This document shows, piece after piece, positions 12,269 to 59,593 of a DNA stretch of 64,000 bases. Source of the DNA: Candidatus Manganitrophus noduliformans (GTDB lineage: Bacteria; Nitrospirota; Nitrospiria; SBBL01; Manganitrophaceae); contig NZ_VTOW01000001.1 of assembly GCF_012184425.1 (NCBI RefSeq), forward strand, positions 1,426,001 through 1,490,000, given 5' to 3'. The first letter of the stretch is position 1. Every line of letters starts with the position of its first letter. The position numbers were made by a program, and so were the translations under genes. The notes under the pieces were generated by a model that saw only the letters and a list, made by a program, of their open reading frames with translations, did no database searches and was not told the DNA's origin.

Positions 12269-12296
12269 TTGACAACATGATTGGAGTCGTGATAAT
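12269..12296 (+). promoter_or_regulatory. promoter of the riboswitch-FN3 transcript
   Basis: TTGACA (12269-12274) and GATAAT (12291-12296) are separated by 16 bp. A start near 12303 gives a leader of about 200 bases that contains the GEMM aptamer and its terminator. Confidence 0.7.
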
Positions 12297-12372: not shown

Positions 12373-12460
12373 CCTTTGTTCAGAGCAAACCTGTCGAAAG
12401 ACGGGGACGCAGAGCAACGGGGCTAAAGCTGTAAAGCCATGCCCGCCGAGCCGCCAAAGG
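12373..12460 (+). promoter_or_regulatory. GEMM-I riboswitch, A20 (cGAMP-type) variant
   Basis: The core shows GAGCAAACC, a GAAA tetraloop hairpin (CTGTCGAAAGACGGG), GACGCAGAGC and a second stem GGGC...GCCC, the order of cyclic dinucleotide GEMM-I aptamers. P1 can form between CCTTTG (12373-12378) and CAAAGG (12455-12460). At the position equal to G20 of the Vibrio Vc2 aptamer the sequence CAGAGC has A (12384). G20A is known to shift recognition towards 3',3'-cGAMP, as in Geobacter GEMM-Ib RNAs. The P1 3' arm is also part of the terminator stem, so ligand binding should turn the gene on. Confidence 0.85.
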
Positions 12461-12484
12461 ATTTCGTTTTGGCGGCTTTTTTTT
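12450..12484 (+). terminator. riboswitch expression-platform terminator
   Basis: GCCGCCAAA (12450-12458) pairs with TTTGGCGGC (12468-12476), followed by eight T (12477-12484). It shares 12455-12458 with the aptamer P1 stem, so the two structures exclude each other. Confidence 0.88.
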
Positions 12485-12505: not shown

Positions 12506-13354
12506 ATGCGAAATCTGTCAAAAAGACAAAACATTCCCCGGGCGCTTTGTCTGGTTCTCTTATTCTTTTTTTGTAAGACCTCTCCCGCTTTTGCAGGCGA
12601 TGCAATCTTATCCTGGACTCCCAACACAGATTCGGATCTGGCCGGATACAAGGTCTATTACGGAACCGTCTCCGGGCGTTACGGAACACCGATCACGGTC
12701 GGCAATCAGACCGCGTACACGGTCACCGGCCTTGGGCTGGGAACCTACTACTTCGTCCTCACCGCCTATGACGTTGCAGGAAACGAGAGTGCTTTTTCGA
12801 ACGAGATCAGTAAAACGTTTTTTGATACGTCTGCTCCCGTCTCCGGTAACACCCCACCGGAGGATGCTCAACCCTCGGATACGACGCCTCCGGCGGATGT
12901 TCAACATTTCTCTGCGGTTCCCGGAGACCGGGAGATCACGCTGCAATGGATCAACCCGCCGGACGTTGATTTCGCGGGGGTTCTCATCCGCTATCGGACC
13001 GATCGCTATCCGAGCGACCTGAACGACGGCGAACTTCTCGGAGATTTCACGGGAGAACCCAATCAGAGCATGAGCGTAACTCACTCAAGCCTGGAGAACG
13101 GCGTCACCTACTACTATGCCGCCGCTTCCTACGATCTCCATGAGAATCGTCAATCTACCGCCCACGCTTCCGCTTCTCCCTTTTCTTTAATCAGTCAAAT
13201 CGACGACGGACAAAATCAGGCGGCCGCCGGCGGGGGAGGTTGTGTAATGCGCTTTCCGCAGGAGGAAAATCTTCCCGGCCCCGCGCAAGCGGCCGAAATA
13301 CCGCTCTTGCTGGGTATTTTCCTCTTCATGTTTCTGAAAAGGAGATTCAGATGA
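12506..13354 (+). CDS. fibronectin type III surface protein
   Basis: The 282 residues contain a signal peptide (cleaved near PAFAG), two fibronectin type III domains (about 35-110, LSWTPNTDSDLAGYKVYYG; about 130-225, ITLQWINPPDVDFAGVLIRY) and a C-terminal tail of GGGGCV, a hydrophobic helix and KRRFR. That tail resembles Gram-negative C-terminal sorting signals. GGGAGA precedes ATG 12506, which lies 21 bases after the riboswitch terminator. Cyclic dinucleotide control suggests a role in attachment or in cell-surface electron-transfer structures; that role is inferred. Confidence 0.85.
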   Translation: MRNLSKRQNIPRALCLVLLFFFCKTSPAFAGDAILSWTPNTDSDLAGYKVYYGTVSGRYGTPITVGNQTAYTVTGLGLGTYYFVLTAYDVAGNESAFSNEISKTFFDTSAPVSGNTPPEDAQPSDTTPPADVQHFSAVPGDREITLQWINPPDVDFAGVLIRYRTDRYPSDLNDGELLGDFTGEPNQSMSVTHSSLENGVTYYYAAASYDLHENRQSTAHASASPFSLISQIDDGQNQAAAGGGGCVMRFPQEENLPGPAQAAEIPLLLGIFLFMFLKRRFR

Positions 13355-18259: not shown

Positions 18260-18937
18260 CTAGCTTTTTGGCTTCACGTGGCAGCGGGTGCAGTTGGCCA
18301 GAGGGAAAGCGACCCGGCCGTGGCAGCGTCCGCAGAACTCTCCGTTAACGATCTTCACCATCGAAATCGGATTGCCCCCCTTCTTCATCATGAAAATGCC
18401 GGGGTGGCAATTGGCGCAATCCAACCAGAAAGTATGTGGGAAGTGGGGAAAGATCACGTTCGGCATGGAGCCGATCGCCGGAATTTCGATATCGAACATA
18501 AAAGGAGGGGTGGGGGGTTTATTAAGATCGAGCGACTCGTGCGGCTTGATCAGATTTTCCTGAAAGGCCTTGACCCAGTCGACTTGGCCGGAGGCATCGA
18601 CCGGAAAGTCCTTCAGGACCACATCTCCATTCGTATTCTCTTGATTATAAGGGGGGCCCGGTGTGGGAAGTTTGGTCGGGTCTTCAAATTTCGGAAGAGC
18701 GGTTGCAGGATGCGGGGCCACCAGCGAAGGTTGTGATGCAAGATCTTTCTCTTGGGCCTGGGCCGGCGCCTGAACCGGAACCGCTTGGGCCGGCGCACCG
18801 GCGGCGGCAGGTACGGCGGGCGGATTCGCCGGTTCACTCTTGGCTTGGCGTATGCAGGCGTAGAAGGTGGTGAGGGAAAGGAGTATGAGCAAGCACCCGA
18901 CAAAGAGATATCTTCTTCGTTCTTTCACCCAAGCCAT
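18260..18937 (-). CDS. membrane-anchored triheme c7-like cytochrome
   Basis: The 225-residue protein has one N-terminal membrane segment (about residues 10-27), a long Pro/Ala-rich linker and a C-terminal triheme domain with CANCH, CGRCH and CTRCH. The spacing and the PHFPHTFWLDCANCHPGIF motif match the cytochrome c7-like fold, where extra His residues act as distal ligands. GGGGAGGATTTC precedes ATG 18937. It follows a second triheme cytochrome of the same type. Both probably carry electrons in the periplasm from the inner membrane towards the outer-membrane complex encoded on the other strand. Confidence 0.9.
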   Translation of the reverse strand: MAWVKERRRYLFVGCLLILLSLTTFYACIRQAKSEPANPPAVPAAAGAPAQAVPVQAPAQAQEKDLASQPSLVAPHPATALPKFEDPTKLPTPGPPYNQENTNGDVVLKDFPVDASGQVDWVKAFQENLIKPHESLDLNKPPTPPFMFDIEIPAIGSMPNVIFPHFPHTFWLDCANCHPGIFMMKKGGNPISMVKIVNGEFCGRCHGRVAFPLANCTRCHVKPKS

Positions 18938-18970
18938 GAAATCCTCCCCTAAGATTCAAAAATTCTTAAT

Positions 18971-18996
18971 GTAAGGGCGTATTGCAATACGCCCCT
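18971..18996. repeat. palindromic element, GGGCG-arm type
   Basis: GGGCGTATTG and CAATACGCCC (18975-18994) form a perfect 20-base palindrome inside GTAA...CTGC borders that resemble the GTAGGGGCG/CGCCCCTAC borders seen at 43231. It sits between the two triheme cytochrome genes. Confidence 0.65.
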
Positions 18997-19013
18997 GCAT
19001 TGAAAAACAATAT

Positions 19014-19385
19014 CTACTTTGGAAAGCCTTCCAGAACCCCTGTTGTCATCCCCGGTGTTCCGGAGTGGCAGCGGGCGCATTCAATCGGCTTCCACGAAAT
19101 CGTTCCGTTGTGGCATTTCCCGCAGAACTGTCCATCAACGATGATCTTCTTCATATCGATATCATTCGATCCCGCCCGCATTTCAAAAATGGCGGGGTGA
19201 CAGACCTTACACTTAAATTCCGCGCGATGGTACCAGTGAGGGAAAACAACCGGCGGCATCCCTCGTTTTTCCGCCTTGCTGTTCAGGACCATATCGCCGT
19301 AGTAGCCTGACACCTTGTCGCCGCCCCAGAAATATGCCAGCAAAAGGCCTAATCCGAGTATGATGCCGATCCGAACACTTTTCAT
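19014..19385 (-). CDS. triheme c7-like cytochrome
   Basis: The 123-residue protein has an uncleaved or signal-type hydrophobic N-terminus (IGIILGLGLLLAYFWGG) and three heme motifs, CKVCH, CGKCH and CARCH. FPHWYHRAEFKCKVCHPAIF and the following segments are the same c7-like pattern as the neighbouring 225-residue protein, without the long linker. ATG 19385 is chosen because GGGAGGAAAG precedes it; the frame is open further upstream into the promoter. It is the first gene of the minus-strand group and divergent from the plus-strand cytochrome operon. Confidence 0.9.
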   Translation of the reverse strand: MKSVRIGIILGLGLLLAYFWGGDKVSGYYGDMVLNSKAEKRGMPPVVFPHWYHRAEFKCKVCHPAIFEMRAGSNDIDMKKIIVDGQFCGKCHNGTISWKPIECARCHSGTPGMTTGVLEGFPK

Positions 19386-19427
19386 CTTTCCTCCCTCTCC
19401 CATGCCGAAGTGGAATCCAACCGCTTG

Positions 19428-19454
19428 ATTATCACACCGGTTTTCTTTTGTCAA
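19428..19454 (-). promoter_or_regulatory. promoter of the minus-strand cytochrome group
   Basis: On the minus strand TTGACA (19449-19454) and GATAAT (19428-19433) lie 15 bp apart, slightly short of optimal. It is 70 bp from the divergent promoter at 19525, so one regulator bound between them could control both directions. Confidence 0.55.
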
Positions 19455-19524
19455 CAAATTTTATTCAAACGGTTCAACTAAGTGAAAAAGGGAAGCTTTT
19501 CATCTCGCGTTTCCGATTTTTTTC

Positions 19525-19552
19525 TTGACAAAAGTGTAAAAAAAACTATAGT
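19525..19552 (+). promoter_or_regulatory. promoter of the plus-strand cytochrome operon
   Basis: TTGACA (19525-19530) and TATAGT (19547-19552) are 16 bp apart, a near-consensus sigma-70 promoter. Transcription should start near 19559, which rules out the TTG there as start codon of the first gene. Confidence 0.75.
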
Positions 19553-19672
19553 TAGGCATTGGAAATTTATGTTCGTATCCGCGATCCGCTTTCTCTTAAA
19601 GATTTCCTTGTTGACCTCATTAAAGATTCGACCTGCCGCATGAGATGGAAACGCTTCGGGAGTCCGTCCGGG

Positions 19673-20479
19673 ATGACGTTTAAGAGAATTCAAATTTTCA
19701 TCTTGTTGGGAATCGTCGGCTTCATCCTATTTCTTTCCGCTTCCGCCAAAGGCGGCTCCATCATCCGATCCCGGCATGATCTCTCCGCGCTGAACTGGCG
19801 CGGATATCAGAACGAGACCGGCCCGATGCAGGGAGGGACCTTCGACGACCTCCGCGAGGCATGCGTCTACTGCCATACGCCTCACAACAGCAGCAGCTAC
19901 GCCCCTCTTTGGAATCGAGAGCTTCCCCAGGAGCGGGGCTATCAAATGTATTCCAGTCCCAACTTCGATTCGGCCCCGCGGAGGGCGCCCGACGGGATCT
20001 CCCTCGCCTGTCTTTCTTGCCACGACGGATCGGTGGCGGTCGATTCGGTTCTCAAGCCGCCGCAATTTCATGACATCGTCGAAACCGGCGGCGATTATCG
20101 GATGACCCTGGAGGGAGAGGAGGGGAGTGACGCCTGCTCGAAATGCCACAATCGGTCGGAAGGGGCCTACGGCGGTCTCTCCGGCGCTCATGATGCGACC
20201 GTCCGCTACTTCACGAAGGATCTGCGGGACGACCACGCCATCTCGATGGTCTTGCCGAGCGCCGATGTCGATCCGCAGTTCAATCAGCCGACGATCTTGA
20301 AGCCGGACGGGGGGCGAATGTTTGCAAACGGGGTTCAGACGTTCGCGGGGGACAAGGTCCAGTGCGCCTCCTGCCATGACATCCACAGTCCCGATGAGAA
20401 GAACCTGCAGGGGCGGGATCCCTTTTTGAGGGCCTCCAATCGAGGGAGCGCCCTCTGCTTGACCTGTCACCAGAAGTAA
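19673..20479 (+). CDS. five-heme c-type cytochrome
   Basis: The 268-residue exported protein has a signal sequence (FILLGIVGFILFLSASA) and five CxxCH motifs: CVYCHTPH, CLSCH, CSKCH, CASCH and CLTCH. The CxxCHTPHN start and CLSCHDGSVA pattern are shared with the two other cytochromes of this operon, so the three belong to one family of NapC/doubled-motif-like multiheme proteins. ATG 19673 has GGGAG 10 bases upstream; ATG 19640 is an alternative. It is the first gene of the conduit operon and probably periplasmic or attached to the outer-membrane complex. Confidence 0.9.
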   Translation: MTFKRIQIFILLGIVGFILFLSASAKGGSIIRSRHDLSALNWRGYQNETGPMQGGTFDDLREACVYCHTPHNSSSYAPLWNRELPQERGYQMYSSPNFDSAPRRAPDGISLACLSCHDGSVAVDSVLKPPQFHDIVETGGDYRMTLEGEEGSDACSKCHNRSEGAYGGLSGAHDATVRYFTKDLRDDHAISMVLPSADVDPQFNQPTILKPDGGRMFANGVQTFAGDKVQCASCHDIHSPDEKNLQGRDPFLRASNRGSALCLTCHQK

Positions 20480-20543
20480 AACCGGGGGCCAGGGATCGGG
20501 TGTCGGGGGGGCGGAGCAAAAATAAAGCGAAGGGAACGATAAA

Positions 20544-21584
20544 GTGAAGAGAGTTTTACTGGTTGTTTTAGCGATGTTGATTTTGACCGGATGCGGCGGA
20601 AAGACGAAAGCGCCCGATCGGGATCTGATCTGGCCCGCTCCCCCTGAAACGCCCCGGATCAAGTTCCTCACGAGCATCGATTCTTCCGAAGATGTGGAGA
20701 AGAAAGGATGGGGGGAGCGGATCAAAGCGGCCCTCTTCGGCGACTCGGGAGGGGCCAAGCTGGTTAAGCCGTATGGCGTTTCCGCCACGCCGGACGGGCG
20801 TATTTACGTCGCCGATTCGGGCTGGAGAAAGATCCTGGTCTTCGACACGCTGCAGGGCCGCTTCTCGATGATCGGCGTCGATGGTCCGGGAGCGCTCGCC
20901 GGACCGATGGGGGTGACGGTCGACAAGGGGGGACGGGTCTACGTCACCGATACGATCCTCCGCAAATGTCTCGTCTACGATCAAGAGGGGCGATTTCTCA
21001 TGTCGATCGGCGATTTAAATCGCCTGGAGCGGCCGGTCGGGGTGGCGGTCAATGATGACTTGAAGCAGGTCTACATCGCCGATACCCGGAAGCATCAGAT
21101 TTTTGTTTATGATTTCGAGGGGAATTTCCTTTTTGAATTCGGAAAGCGGGGGGCGGAGGATGGCGAATTCAACTTCCCGGCGAACCTCTTTGTCGATGCC
21201 GCCGGAAAGGTCTATGTCACCGATCTGAATTTCCGGGTTCAGATCTTCGATGCCGCCGGAAAATTTCTTTCCAAGTTCGGCAATGTCGGGACCGGTTTCG
21301 GGCAATTCTCCCTTCCGAAGGGGGTCGGGGTCGACTCGCAGGGACATATTTACGTGGTCGACTCCCGCTTCAACAACGTCCAAATCTTCAGCCCGGAGGG
21401 GCAACTCCTCCTCTTCTTCGGCGAGTTCGGAAGCAGGGACGGCCAACTCTGGCTGCCGGCCGGCCTCTCGATCGACGATCAGGACCGGATCTACATCGCC
21501 GATCAGTACAATCATCGAATCAACATCTTCCAATATATCGGACCCGCTGAAAAAAATGAGAAACCGGAGGAATCTCCTTCATGA
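20544..21584 (+). CDS. NHL-repeat lipoprotein
   Basis: GTG 20544 starts a 346-residue lipoprotein with lipobox LTGC (Cys17). After a conserved entry segment (LIWPAPPETPRIKFLTSI) come six NHL repeats, for example KPYGVSATPDGRIYVADSGWRKILVFD, forming a six-bladed propeller. The same WPxPPxxPxIxF entry is found in the paralogue at 25306-26370. NHL propellers usually bind protein partners. The 3' end overlaps the next cytochrome gene by 4 bases (ATGA), so the two are translationally coupled and may associate. Confidence 0.92.
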   Translation: MKRVLLVVLAMLILTGCGGKTKAPDRDLIWPAPPETPRIKFLTSIDSSEDVEKKGWGERIKAALFGDSGGAKLVKPYGVSATPDGRIYVADSGWRKILVFDTLQGRFSMIGVDGPGALAGPMGVTVDKGGRVYVTDTILRKCLVYDQEGRFLMSIGDLNRLERPVGVAVNDDLKQVYIADTRKHQIFVYDFEGNFLFEFGKRGAEDGEFNFPANLFVDAAGKVYVTDLNFRVQIFDAAGKFLSKFGNVGTGFGQFSLPKGVGVDSQGHIYVVDSRFNNVQIFSPEGQLLLFFGEFGSRDGQLWLPAGLSIDDQDRIYIADQYNHRINIFQYIGPAEKNEKPEESPS

Positions 21585-22771
21585 CGACGCGTCGCAGCGC
21601 CTCTGATCGGCAGAGGATGGTCCTGAAACGGATCGGACGCTTCCTTCACGCGGCCAATGGCTTGCTCCCGGCAGGCTTCTCCTCACGAAGGCGGAATTTT
21701 ATTTTGATCGTCCTGGCGCTGACGGGGACCGCTTTCTCTCTCCTGAATGTCTTCGCATCTGAAGATGTTCGACATACCAAGCACAATTTGGCCGTGAATC
21801 CCGATACCTTTGCCAGGGAGGGAAGCGACTTCAAAGCAGGGGAGTTGACCTCGCTTCGCGGGGCGCGAAATCCGGAGGTCCGCGGCGTGGAAGGGGACAT
21901 CCGCCTGAATGAAGAGGTCTGCATCTTCTGCCACACCCCGCATGGCGCGCAGAGCAATGTCGGCGGGCTGGTCGGACATGCGCCGCTTTGGAACCGCCGC
22001 CTCTCCAATCCGATGGCTTTTACCCCTTATACCAGCCCCAATTATGACGCCCAAGATATGCTGGGGACGCCGGGCCGGCCGAAGGGGGTCTCGCTCGCCT
22101 GCCTCTCTTGCCATGACGGCGCGGTGGCGTTCGATGCCTTGATCAACAGTTCCGGATCGGGCGGCTTCTTCCCGAGCAACCGGGTCTTGACCGGGGCGGG
22201 GGGAAGCATCGGGATGACCTTTTCGGGGCCGGCGGTCGATGCAACGAACAGCTTCCGCGAGGGGCGCCGGGACGACACGTCGGGAGGATTTGTTTTCTTC
22301 GATGCGTTCGGCGGGGGCCCGAATGCCTCGTTGGGAGCCGAACCGTTCCCGAACCTGGGGCTCGATCTGCGGGATGATCATCCGGTGAGCATCGAGATTC
22401 CCCGGACCGATCCTCAGTTCCGGGAGATTCTAACGAACATCACTTCCAAAGGAGGGCGCATTCCGGGAAGCGGGAGCGTGATGTGGATCGATCGGAATCC
22501 GAACGGCGCCTTCCTGCCGTTGGACAAACGCGATCGGATTCGGGCCTATCCCTCCGATCCGGCGCGTCCCGATGCGCCGTACATCGAGTGCGCCTCCTGT
22601 CACAATCCGCATGAGGCGAGCCGTCCCGGCGGGCAGCCGGCCCTTTCGGAGCCGGTCAATCCTCAAACGGTCAACAACAATCTTTTTTTAAGGATGGCTT
22701 CGATGCCGGGGGCCAACTCACAAGACCGGAACGCCGGGAGCCTGGTCTGTTTGAGCTGTCATAAGAAGTAA
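21581..22771 (+). CDS. four-heme c-type cytochrome
   Basis: The 396-residue exported protein has four CxxCH motifs, CIFCHTPHG, CLSCHDGAVAF, CASCHNPHE and CLSCHKK, the last at the very C-terminus. The entry DVRHTKHNLAV resembles the VSNTKHNLSA entry of the 1018-residue cytochrome, so distal His ligands probably come from this segment. A long basic N-terminus (about 38 residues) precedes the hydrophobic signal segment FILIVLALTGTAF, so the true start could be internal. It is coupled to the NHL lipoprotein upstream. Confidence 0.88.
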   Translation: MTTRRSASDRQRMVLKRIGRFLHAANGLLPAGFSSRRRNFILIVLALTGTAFSLLNVFASEDVRHTKHNLAVNPDTFAREGSDFKAGELTSLRGARNPEVRGVEGDIRLNEEVCIFCHTPHGAQSNVGGLVGHAPLWNRRLSNPMAFTPYTSPNYDAQDMLGTPGRPKGVSLACLSCHDGAVAFDALINSSGSGGFFPSNRVLTGAGGSIGMTFSGPAVDATNSFREGRRDDTSGGFVFFDAFGGGPNASLGAEPFPNLGLDLRDDHPVSIEIPRTDPQFREILTNITSKGGRIPGSGSVMWIDRNPNGAFLPLDKRDRIRAYPSDPARPDAPYIECASCHNPHEASRPGGQPALSEPVNPQTVNNNLFLRMASMPGANSQDRNAGSLVCLSCHKK

Positions 22772-22783
22772 GGAAAGTCGGAA

Positions 22784-23350
22784 GTGAGAAGAGCGGAGAG
22801 AGGAGTCGGAAGAGAGAGATCGGAAGTCAGAACAGGGAAGCTTCTAAAGCCGTTCTTCTGGATTCTGTCTTCCGGATTCTGTCTTCTTTTTCTCCCGCAG
22901 GTTTTGCTTGCGGATGACGCCGCGCCGGTCGCGGAGGTCAACCAGGTTCCGATTACGGCGGATTCGGTCGAGGAAGGGGTCCGGAATTATCTTCGCCAGA
23001 TCGGCCACAAGGAACTTTCCCCTCCGAGGATGATGAGTCTACGGAGAGAGGTGCTGGGAAGGTTGATCGACGAAGAATTGATATACCAGGAAGCGCTGAA
23101 GCAGGGGGAGAAGATCGCTCCCGAGGAGATCGAAGCGGAGGTGGACCGAATCCGAAAACGGTTCTCCGCCGAGGAAGATTTCGACGCGGCGCTGGTCCGG
23201 GAGGGACTCACCCTCGAAGAGGTCAGAGAGGGGGTGCGTCGGTTCATTCTGGTTCGGAAAATGTGGAATGAAATTTCTCCGTCCGACGAGGCGGGGAAAA
23301 AGAATTGGTTGGAAGGGGTTCGGAAGAAATCAGAAATTAAAATTTATTAA
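22784..23350 (+). CDS. SurA-N-like chaperone lacking rotamase
   Basis: GTG 22784 starts a 188-residue exported protein. After a signal peptide (FFWILSSGFCLLFLPQVLLA) it has a SurA/PrsA N-terminal chaperone region: VAEVNQVPITADSVEEGVRNYLR, MMSLRREVLGRLIDEELIYQEALKQGEKI and EEIEAEVDRIRKRFSAEEDF. Full-length family members continue into a PPIase parvulin domain, which is missing here. It lies directly upstream of the beta-barrel gene, so it probably escorts that barrel or the cytochromes during secretion. The first 60 bases are a low-complexity GGAAGAG-rich tract. Confidence 0.82.
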   Translation: MRRAERGVGRERSEVRTGKLLKPFFWILSSGFCLLFLPQVLLADDAAPVAEVNQVPITADSVEEGVRNYLRQIGHKELSPPRMMSLRREVLGRLIDEELIYQEALKQGEKIAPEEIEAEVDRIRKRFSAEEDFDAALVREGLTLEEVREGVRRFILVRKMWNEISPSDEAGKKNWLEGVRKKSEIKIY

Positions 23351-23354
23351 ATAA

Positions 23355-23402
23355 CGGCGGTTTATTTGCCGCCGATTTGTCGAAGGCGATCGAAGAATCG
23401 CC
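23355..23402 (+). promoter_or_regulatory. two small hairpins inside the conduit operon
   Basis: CGGCGG (23355-23360) pairs with CCGCCG (23369-23374), and GGCGAT (23385-23390) with ATCGCC (23397-23402). Both lie in the 85-base gap before the beta-barrel gene. They lack a T run, so attenuation or RNA processing is more likely than full termination. Confidence 0.4.
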
Positions 23403-23435
23403 TGTGCGGAACACCTGGGGGGAGGAACGCTCCGT

Positions 23436-25280
23436 TTGGAGAAGAAACGCTGTCTTTGTATCGGAATGCTCTTTATCTTTTTCCTCCCGACGGTTTTCTT
23501 TTTCCCCTCCCGGGCGGACGGACGCCTCCTCAATTTAGGAGGGAGCGTCGATTTATCTTATGGGCATATTCGAACGACACAGCAAGAGGCCGTCACGGAG
23601 ACCGATTTTCTGCAGCAGCGTTACAACCTTCATAATTTCGGAGAGATTATCGATCCCCGCATCGGGACGTTCTCCCTCAGCGGGACGTTTCTCAGCCAGG
23701 ACACCAAGACGAGCGGCAATTTCACCGATCAGAATTTCAACTTCACCGATTATTCCCTTGGGTTGAATCTCTTTCCATATATCTCTCCCTTCAGTTTTTA
23801 CGCCCAACGGGTCACCCGCTCCAACCAGCTCGATACCGTTGTGAAAGATACGATCACCACCTACGGGGCGAATTGGTCTCTTTCGATTCCCCGGTTGCCG
23901 CGCCTTGCCCTCTCCTACAACCAATCGGAGCTGAAGGCGAACGATCGCGACCGCCTTCCGGATACCGTCAGCCGGTACTTCAACGCGGAATCGAGCGGCC
24001 GGATCGGGGAGACGACGGTGATCGGCCGGTATCAATACAATCAAACCGATGTGGCGCGGATCGACGGGGAGGTCGATTCGATCGACGGCCATGCGGTGAA
24101 CCTGAATACCGAGAGCCGTCTTGCTTCCGACCTTTCGTTGAGCACCTTTGCCCGGTATGCCGACGTCGGGGGAACGAATGCGCCGGGGCTGACTTTCGCC
24201 CAGGAGCGGGCCGTCGGCGCCTCCGTCTTTTACACGCCGAGTGTTTTTTGGGATACCCACGCGCGGGTCGAATATGCCGAGACGCCCGATACGATCGACT
24301 TCAACCGGCTGAATGCTTTCTGGAGCGCCTCGATCCGGCCGACCGAGCTTCTTGACATGGTGACGAGCCTCCGGTATTTTCAATTTGAAGTGAACGGGAC
24401 GACGACCTCTTCTCCCTTTGCCGACTATGTCCTCAACTACCGTCCCTTCTTCGGGCTGAGCACCGGCTTCGGGGCCTCGATGGGAATGACCGAGACCGAG
24501 GGGAACGGGGCCGAGCTCTCTTCTTTCTACCAACGGTACCGGGGTTATGCGAATTACACCCGGTCGGTCGAGATTCTCCGCTACAGCGCCAGCTATGCTT
24601 TGAGCTACGGGACCGCCGATACCTCCCGGGCGAATTTGGCCGGTCCTCAGGAAGACGATCTTCGGGATTTGATGAACACCATCACGCTGGGGGTTGAAAA
24701 CACCCAGATCCGAATTATCCATATCGCCCTGGCGTATACCTTCAACGATATCAATCGGGACGGCCCGACCCTTCAGGAAGAGGACGACCAGCGCTCTCAT
24801 ACTTTCCAGGTCAACGCCGACAGCAGCTATTTCCGCGGGCTGATTTTCAGGGACGACAGCCTCTTTCTCCAGGGCTCGACGAGCCTTACCCGGATCGAGG
24901 GCTTCGGGCCGACGGGGAGCTCCTTTCTGATCGACGCGCGGGGAAGCTACTATTTCCTGGGGGGCGGGCTTTTGGCGGCCGGCTGGACCCGGCAGAATTA
25001 CCCGGAAGGTTTTTATTTGGACTCGGATATTTTCTTCGAAGAGATCCAATGGAGCTTCTATCTTGGAAATACCAACCTCACCGTGGGGGCTCGCGACAGC
25101 CATCAACGGGGAGACGGAAACAGCTCGCTCGATCGGGATACGCTCGAGTTCACCACCGTGCTGGCTTATCAGATCGGGAAGTTCATCTTCAATCTCGACC
25201 ATCGCTGGGCCAATGACCGCTCGGCCGGGATGACTTACCGAAGCGAGACGATTTTTGCAAGAGCGACGAGAGTCTTTTAA
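23436..25280 (+). CDS. outer-membrane beta-barrel (conduit porin)
   Basis: The 614-residue protein has a signal peptide (to about residue 28, SRADG) and then alternating amphipathic strands rich in Tyr, Phe, Asn and Thr with no domain insertions. It ends RATRVF; a C-terminal Phe is the recognition signal of the BAM insertion machinery. TTG 23436 is used because GGGGGAGG lies 9 bases upstream. Flanked by multiheme cytochromes and NHL lipoproteins it fits the porin sheath of a porin-cytochrome conduit, as in MtrB- or OmbB-type complexes; sequence kinship to those was not tested. Confidence 0.85.
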   Translation: MEKKRCLCIGMLFIFFLPTVFFFPSRADGRLLNLGGSVDLSYGHIRTTQQEAVTETDFLQQRYNLHNFGEIIDPRIGTFSLSGTFLSQDTKTSGNFTDQNFNFTDYSLGLNLFPYISPFSFYAQRVTRSNQLDTVVKDTITTYGANWSLSIPRLPRLALSYNQSELKANDRDRLPDTVSRYFNAESSGRIGETTVIGRYQYNQTDVARIDGEVDSIDGHAVNLNTESRLASDLSLSTFARYADVGGTNAPGLTFAQERAVGASVFYTPSVFWDTHARVEYAETPDTIDFNRLNAFWSASIRPTELLDMVTSLRYFQFEVNGTTTSSPFADYVLNYRPFFGLSTGFGASMGMTETEGNGAELSSFYQRYRGYANYTRSVEILRYSASYALSYGTADTSRANLAGPQEDDLRDLMNTITLGVENTQIRIIHIALAYTFNDINRDGPTLQEEDDQRSHTFQVNADSSYFRGLIFRDDSLFLQGSTSLTRIEGFGPTGSSFLIDARGSYYFLGGGLLAAGWTRQNYPEGFYLDSDIFFEEIQWSFYLGNTNLTVGARDSHQRGDGNSSLDRDTLEFTTVLAYQIGKFIFNLDHRWANDRSAGMTYRSETIFARATRVF

Positions 25281-57557: not shown

Positions 57558-59593
57558 CGAACGGCCTCCGGCGGAGGAGGGGAGAGGATCGCTTGCGGCT
57601 TTCCGAACAGAAAACCTTGCGCAAAATGAATCTCCATCTCCCGCACGATGCTCAATTCCTCTTCGGTTTCAATCCCCTCGGCAATGATTCCGGAGGGCTC
57701 ATGATTCCGCAGCGCCCCGACCAACTCTTTGAGAAACTGGCGGAACACCTTCGATTCGACCGCCTGGAGGATGGCCGATCGGTCGATTTTGATGTAGTCG
57801 GGAACGAGCTGGGAGATAAAGGGAAGGGAGACAAAACTGGCTCCGAAATCATCCATGGCAAATTTAAATCCTTGTTCTTTCCAGCTTCGAGCGATTTGCA
57901 GGCGTTGGTCGATATTATGGAGGGCCTCCGATTCGGAGATCTCCAAAATGACTTCGACGTCTGGGGGTTTGGAAATCAGGCCGACCTGATCGAGGAGGTT
58001 GAAATCGACATTGATGAAGACGCGCTGAAGCCGGAGCCGTTGCGCCGCCTTGAGCTGCAATTGAAAACAGATCCGTTTTAACTCGCTCAACTGGCCGATC
58101 GCCTGATACTTTTTGAAAAGTTCAGCGATGCTTAACTTTCCCTGAGGATCGCGGCTGAGCGCTTCATACCCGATGATCCGATGGGAGGAGATCTCGATCA
58201 CCGGTTGAAAGACGGTCGTCACCGCGTTTTCATCCAGATCATACTCTTTGTCCCCGATGTGGATCTTATCTCCCCCCTTTTTGGCGATGTAGAGGGAGCG
58301 GTCGGCCATGCTGATCAATTCGTCGACCGTCCGGCCGTGTTCGGGATAAAGGGAGATGCCGATGCTGACGTCGAGGGGAATATCCGCTTCATTCCCAATT
58401 TTGAGAATTCCTTCCCTGATCCGGTTCGCCGCCGTGAGAACCCCGTCACGGGTTGCTTTCGAAAGGACCACCACGATCTCATCTCCTCCCCAACGGAAGA
58501 TTAAATCGATGCCGCGGGTGGAGTCAAGGATGCTTAACGCCACCGCCTTCAACATGCGATCGCCGACCTGATGGCCCAAGGTGTCGTTCAGTACTTTAAA
58601 GAAATCGAGGTCGCACATTAAAATTGCGACGGGATATTTCTCCCGGTTCGCCCGTGCGATTTCATCTTCGGCCCGCTGGTCGAAGTAGCGCCGGTTGTAG
58701 AGGCCGGTGAGGGAGTCCCGGATGGCTTGCTCCTGCAGCGCCTTCTCGTTCCGCCGGCGCTCGGTGATATCGCGGAAGCTCCAGACGCGGCCGCTCGTCT
58801 TCTCGATCTGTTGCGGCTTGGAATAACGCTCGAAGATTTTTCCATCTTTGAATTCAAGGATATCGTAACTCTCCGCCTCCGGTTGAGCATAAAGCTCCCG
58901 GATTTTGGCGATGAACTGTTCCGGCTCCTTCAATTGCCCGAGGACATAGTTGATGGATTGGTTATCGTCTTGGGAAGCGATAATCTCGCGGGGGATCTGC
59001 CACATATCGACGAATTTTCGGTTAAATGTTCTGATTTTTCCCGTCTGGTCGACCACGAGGAGTCCGTCGGTCGTCGACTCCAAGGCGGCGTTCACCAATG
59101 AAAGAGCGGTCTTCAGCTCCTCTTCTTTTTGTATTCGATCGCGCATTTTATTTTCAAGATCTTTGCCGGTCGTTTCAACTGTTCCAGCATGCTCCGAGAT
59201 CGATTGCTCCATCTTTCTGAGAAGCTGTCGATTTTCTTCTTTCGTTGCCTCTGCCCGGTGTCGCGCCGATCCCCATGCGACTGAAAGAGAGGTGATTAAA
59301 AAGGCTTTGAAGAAGAACCACTCGGATGTTGGAAGAGGGTCGCTTGGGGGGGTGAGACCTCCGTGAAGAAGCATGGATGAAAAGGAGGCGAGGAGACCCG
59401 GTCCGACCCCTCCGTACCAGGTGCTGACGATGGTGGCTGCAGAGAAAAGAAGGAAGGAAACCTCTCGACCGATCAGGGGGATCAAAGTCGTTTTGAGAGG
59501 AAAGGAAACGGCAACGACGGCAAGAGCAAAGCCGTAGCGATAGACCGAATTTTTACAAATCGTCATTTTTGTTGAGCGGACATAAGTCGCCAA
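57554..59593 (-). CDS. membrane GGDEF-EAL cyclic-di-GMP protein
   Basis: The 679-residue protein has a DUF4118-like membrane part (about 15-110), a PAS domain (about 165-285), a GGDEF domain with signature WGGDEIVVV and an EAL domain with YEALSRD and the C-terminal EGIETEEEL. Both domains could be active, so it may make or degrade cyclic-di-GMP. The start is uncertain: TTG 59593 would leave a leader of only a few bases, ATG 59566 would leave about 30, and neither has a good binding site. It heads the four-gene signalling operon. Confidence 0.92.
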   Translation of the reverse strand: MATYVRSTKMTICKNSVYRYGFALAVVAVSFPLKTTLIPLIGREVSFLLFSAATIVSTWYGGVGPGLLASFSSMLLHGGLTPPSDPLPTSEWFFFKAFLITSLSVAWGSARHRAEATKEENRQLLRKMEQSISEHAGTVETTGKDLENKMRDRIQKEEELKTALSLVNAALESTTDGLLVVDQTGKIRTFNRKFVDMWQIPREIIASQDDNQSINYVLGQLKEPEQFIAKIRELYAQPEAESYDILEFKDGKIFERYSKPQQIEKTSGRVWSFRDITERRRNEKALQEQAIRDSLTGLYNRRYFDQRAEDEIARANREKYPVAILMCDLDFFKVLNDTLGHQVGDRMLKAVALSILDSTRGIDLIFRWGGDEIVVVLSKATRDGVLTAANRIREGILKIGNEADIPLDVSIGISLYPEHGRTVDELISMADRSLYIAKKGGDKIHIGDKEYDLDENAVTTVFQPVIEISSHRIIGYEALSRDPQGKLSIAELFKKYQAIGQLSELKRICFQLQLKAAQRLRLQRVFINVDFNLLDQVGLISKPPDVEVILEISESEALHNIDQRLQIARSWKEQGFKFAMDDFGASFVSLPFISQLVPDYIKIDRSAILQAVESKVFRQFLKELVGALRNHEPSGIIAEGIETEEELSIVREMEIHFAQGFLFGKPQAILSPPPPEAVR

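Follow-up and report, generated by a model that had tools for sequence, protein, structure and literature searches.

A GEMM-I riboswitch with A20 and an overlapping terminator upstream of an FN3-domain protein gene in Candidatus Manganitrophus noduliformans, with cGAMP as its most likely ligand

Most of what is documented on cGAMP signalling through riboswitches comes from Geobacter, in which it adjusts metal respiration, and GacA of G. metallireducens is the founding cGAMP synthase. Synthases of this kind (Hypr enzymes) have been proposed to have arisen in ancestral deltaproteobacteria; the Ser-type enzymes use a GGDEF rather than a GGEEF motif, and loss of a conserved Arg accompanies cGAMP output (PMC6456294). 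In the cGAMP switch of G. metallireducens pilM, the terminator sequesters the ligand-pairing C75, which makes it an ON switch (PMC9262584). Binding of c-di-GMP can persist in published A20 RNAs (PMC9481103; PMC9262584), and in the A20 aptamer of Desulfobacca acetoxidans cGAMP binding was improved while c-di-GMP binding was little reduced (PMC9481103). The Manganitrophus family has been described as Mn(II)-oxidizing chemolithoautotrophs, supported by comparative genomics (PMC9040806).

Aptamer, terminator and downstream gene

The analysed window is a stretch of 64 kb, and its sole Rfam riboswitch is a GEMM-I aptamer (RF01051) on the forward strand. The match covers 12374-12458 and model positions 1-87 with 68.3 bits (E = 3e-11), above the gathering score of 35 bits used as cut-off, and contains P1b, P2, P3 and the tetraloop. 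Including P1, the aptamer extends over 12373-12460 (+). P1 is formed by CCUUUG (12373-12378) and CAAAGG (12455-12460) with six perfect pairs, which covary over 134 A20 aptamers, e.g. T-A, C-G and G-C at the same pairs. In the Rfam alignment, column 11, the 5' neighbour of the P1b GC and equivalent of the ligand-contacting G20 of Vc2, is A12384 (+), the A at position 20 that characterizes cGAMP riboswitches (GEMM-Ib); the equivalent letter is A in every copy of the window's own aptamer type across the genus. According to alignment and fold, C12454 (+) stands at the position of Vc2 C92, which pairs the other ligand base. The 112-nt stretch 12373-12484 folds with -46.8 kcal/mol, whereas its shuffles average -33.2 (z = -3.65) and none of 200 was as stable. 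The first-pass annotation had placed a GEMM-I riboswitch at 12373-12484 with an A at the G20 equivalent, and both statements are borne out by the full-length match and its alignment.

An intrinsic terminator follows at 12448-12484 (+), with a stem at 12448-12478 (12 pairs, 6 of them G-C) and a U-tract to 12484; the hairpin alone has -18.4 kcal/mol. The GEMM-I aptamer with A20 and overlapping terminator is thereby confirmed. Since the 5' arm of the terminator contains both C12454 and the P1 3' arm CAAAGG, aptamer and terminator are mutually exclusive, and the expression platform is coupled to P1 as in other GEMM-I riboswitches. The overlap and the ligand-ON architecture derived from it had been annotated before and hold; judged by its anatomy, the RNA would be a ligand-ON transcription switch like that of G. 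metallireducens pilM.

In the minimum-energy fold, an alternative helix around P2, termed P0 (12376-12417, +; 12376-12381 paired with 12412-12417), excludes P1 and takes up its 5' strand in the predicted ligand-free state. Positions 8 and 39 covary, C occurring with G or A with A in 150 of 165 distinct aptamers. All 71 aptamers with C8-G39 are A20 aptamers and none of the 31 G20 aptamers has this pair; the sample was partly fetched with patterns demanding A20, hence this exclusivity rests on the part fetched by Rfam. Among the 71 C8/G39 aptamers, each of the four core pairs of P0 is retained in 92-100%; the other aptamers lack these pairs. A pocket base pair C8-G39 was considered and dropped, as the P0 helix explains the covariation equally well. 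P0 may represent a functional ligand-free state.

A consensus scan gave a σ70-like promoter (TTGACA-16-GATAAT, 12269-12296, +) that agrees at 11 of 12 positions; 0.3 such sites would be expected in shuffled sequence. The gene downstream of the riboswitch, 12506-13354 (+), encodes a secreted FN3-domain protein of 282 aa (Pfam fn3, 1.6e-10). The gene that follows runs in the opposite direction, so this gene alone is the controlled unit. The protein has a signal-peptide-like start and a tail composed of GGGGC, a hydrophobic stretch and KRRFR. This tail probably serves surface anchoring, which would place the protein at the surface; the surface protein annotated downstream is retained as a surface-type FN3 protein. 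Two sister genomes (L267, L073) retain the aptamer, A20, the terminator and the FN3 gene, the orthologue there carrying the riboswitch as well.

The window also contains, at 18260-25280, multihaem cytochromes, an NHL protein, a SurA-like protein and a possible outer-membrane beta-barrel, a candidate porin-cytochrome locus. Roughly 5 kb separate the cytochrome genes (18260-22771) from the FN3 gene, and this interval holds genes for a methyltransferase, a sugar isomerase, a UDP-glucose dehydrogenase and others on both strands. Shared control of this cluster and the riboswitch was rejected, as the cluster has neither a riboswitch nor a common transcript. The earlier tie to electron transfer is weak: it reduces to proximity and finds no support in gene order.

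GEMM-I RNAs and GGDEF domains in the genome and its relatives

The genome contains ten GEMM-I RNAs, eight with A20 and two with G20. Six of the A20 switches are of the window type (CUUUG-YUCAGAGC...) and two are diverged. Three secreted FN3-domain proteins are preceded by five A20 switches: the single window-type switch of the window before the 282-aa protein, and A20-A20 tandems before proteins of 1156 aa and 1279 aa. A further window-type A20 switch precedes a 372-aa TIG-domain protein, and a G20 switch precedes a 746-aa FN3 protein with a tail of the same kind as that of the 282-aa protein. None of the eight A20 switches is followed by a recognisable cytochrome. The A20-A20 tandems (C2:491118-491371 and C2:497339-497598, L059), whose genes encode FN3/DNRLRE proteins, would be expected to respond in a pseudo-cooperative manner. 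One diverged A20 aptamer (C1:1856913-1857009, L202; GAUAAUAGC) is near the Geobacter pocket letters and lies upstream of a PilZ-domain protein.

Both classes are kept across the genus, with 31 distinct A20 and 10 distinct G20 aptamers. Four mixed tandems were found in three sister genomes (L270 3076-3383, L283 733-1087, L275 893-1147 and L277 6731-7068; genomes G003, G005 and G004), each with a G20 aptamer (c-di-GMP-type) upstream of an A20 aptamer, a terminator-like hairpin after each aptamer and one FN3 gene downstream. Such a pair could be a two-messenger gate; a G20-A20 pair is absent from the logic-gate table of a tandem-riboswitch survey (PMC9481103).

The genome encodes 48 GGDEF domains, which were read by script apart from a few degenerate ones. 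Two have Ser for Asp at the guanine-reading position that defines Hypr enzymes, together with a GGDEF and not a GGEEF motif; most, i.e. dozens, are canonical Asp-type domains. One of the 48 lies in the window itself (58271-58726, -) in a 686-aa frame. The two Ser-type domains, at C4:65194 (GHLMGSQVL...GGDEF) and C3:131520 (GHLTGSHIL...GGDEF), both belong to GAF-GGDEF proteins and both have G. metallireducens GacA (6D9M) as best PDB match, with 172.8 bits versus 124.5 for the next-best structure in one protein and 92.0 versus 86.5 in the other. Their cross-dimer positions are Phe and Asp, not Arg. From these residues and matches, both are likely cGAMP-making enzymes and would represent the candidate synthases expected in a genome with a cGAMP riboswitch.

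In a comparison of 246 Nitrospirota genomes, 21 contained the A20 motif and 91 the Hypr motif. A Hypr-type GGDEF is present in 19 of the 21 genomes with A20 and in 72 of the 225 without (Fisher p = 2e-7). The association has p = 3e-4 without two Nitrospira-like families, in which neither motif occurs, and p = 0.04 at family level (11/28 versus 0/10); shared ancestry inflates the genome-level numbers and the co-occurrence is partly kinship. The Ser-type GGDEF motif occurs widely across the phylum (91/246) and is absent from the Nitrospira-like families. A G20 pattern matched 5 of 246 genomes, one of them probably by chance, and was discarded as too rare to serve as a control.

For a counter-test, the search was turned to 30 genomes that carry A20 aptamers and mostly belong to phyla other than Nitrospirota. 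The Hypr pattern, which undercounts and missed a Gemmatimonadota Ser-type GGDEF reading LK for FK, was unmatched in 27 of them; the three genomes with matches are all deltaproteobacterial, and genomes with A20 aptamers and no match occur in Bacillota, Chloroflexota and Gemmatimonadota. A20 aptamers of the same CUCAGAGC subfamily as that of the window are present in the Gemmatimonadota loci L097, L101-L103, L111, L124, L131, L146 and L163. Among the GGDEFs read in four such Gemmatimonadota genomes, almost all are of the Asp type and one is of the Ser type. A20 in genomes without a Hypr match rules out this letter as sufficient proof of cGAMP; therefore, A20 alone does not imply this ligand.

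Ligand and direction of switching

In our view, 12373-12484 is, with fair probability, a GEMM-Ib-type riboswitch that turns transcription on and most likely responds to cGAMP; both ligand preference and switching direction are inferred. Since A20 alone is insufficient, the case for cGAMP rests on A20 combined with the Hypr enzymes and with the distinct class of G20 aptamers that the cell also has. In the absence of ligand, the P1 5' arm would pair inside the aptamer as P0, while the P1 3' arm and C12454 would fold into the terminator and transcription would stop before the FN3 gene. 3',3'-cGAMP made by the Hypr GGDEF enzymes of the cell would bind between A12384 and C12454; P1 would then close, the terminator would be blocked and the surface protein would be expressed.

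Against cGAMP stand the pocket letters of the GEMM-Ib structure 4YAZ, A9, A11 and A42, which are not known to be required and are U, C and G here; A11 and A42 contact the ligand in 4YAZ. Less likely, though the most probable of the alternatives, is a GEMM-I ON switch that tolerates A20 and is either promiscuous or responsive to c-di-GMP, so that the FN3 protein answers c-di-GMP or both messengers. Its pocket letters C-A-G-A differ from Vc2 by G20A only, reported A20 RNAs bind cGAMP without losing all c-di-GMP binding, A20 occurs in many phyla without a detected Hypr enzyme, and most of the 48 GGDEFs of the genome are Asp-type. However, this genome retains G20 aptamers of their own, one of them before a sister FN3 gene, the G20 and A20 tandems of the sister species are hard to explain if both aptamers read one signal equally, and A20 goes with Hypr enzymes in Nitrospirota. 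For the direction, a reversed use of the overlap, in which the ligand stabilises termination, or another route of control is very improbable: GEMM-I OFF switches such as Cd1 exist, but the terminator stem includes P1 and C12454, which makes aptamer and terminator exclusive, and a separate antiterminator was not seen. A decayed or chance aptamer without function has the smallest probability of all, given the full-length 68-bit match, the co-conservation of terminator and gene in the sister genomes and ten family copies in the genome.

For the cGAMP reading, a wider proposal can be made, to which we assign slightly less than an even chance: a cGAMP regulon of Mn-oxidizing Nitrospirota, in which Hypr GGDEFs make the signal, an expanded A20 family reads it and FN3 surface proteins are switched on, the G20-A20 tandems of sister species acting as a c-di-GMP/cGAMP gate. 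If true, riboswitch-read cGAMP signalling would reach a further phylum and a lifestyle of electron uptake, its targets being surface proteins and not cytochromes, and the mixed tandems would offer a direct way to study how one cell separates two near-identical messengers. The Hypr-type GGDEFs in 91 of 246 Nitrospirota genomes also bear on the idea of a deltaproteobacterial origin (PMC6456294).

Comparison with known systems

Compared to the Geobacter cGAMP riboswitches (Gmet_0970/pilM and GSU1761/pgcA), whose sequences were accessed via reviews and relatives only, the RNA shares the GEMM-I fold, A20, C92 and a J1/2 of 6 nt. In both, the terminator absorbs the P1 3' arm and C92 (ON architecture), and both genomes encode Hypr or Hypr-type GGDEFs. 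The differences are J1/2, which is UUCAGA here whereas the 4YAZ aptamer has the ligand-contacting letters A-A-U-A, the extra P0 helix, the Nitrospirota host, and the targets, which are FN3 surface proteins here, no cytochrome or pilus gene having been seen under the A20 switches. The c-di-GMP-I riboswitch Vc2 (G20) has the same fold and the same pocket letters before position 20, C-A-G; here, A replaces G at position 20 and G replaces A at the A48 equivalent. The Desulfobacca acetoxidans A20 aptamer (PMC9481103) is likewise an A20 variant that shares its genome with G20 relatives, whereas linkage to an AdoCbl riboswitch belongs to the Desulfobacca aptamer. Of the enzymes, the two candidates share with the Hypr GGDEF GacA (GSU1658, Gmet_1914; PDB 6D9M) the Ser at the nucleobase-selecting position and the GGDEF motif; they are GAF-GGDEF proteins and have Phe or Asp at the cross-dimer position, where GacA has Tyr.
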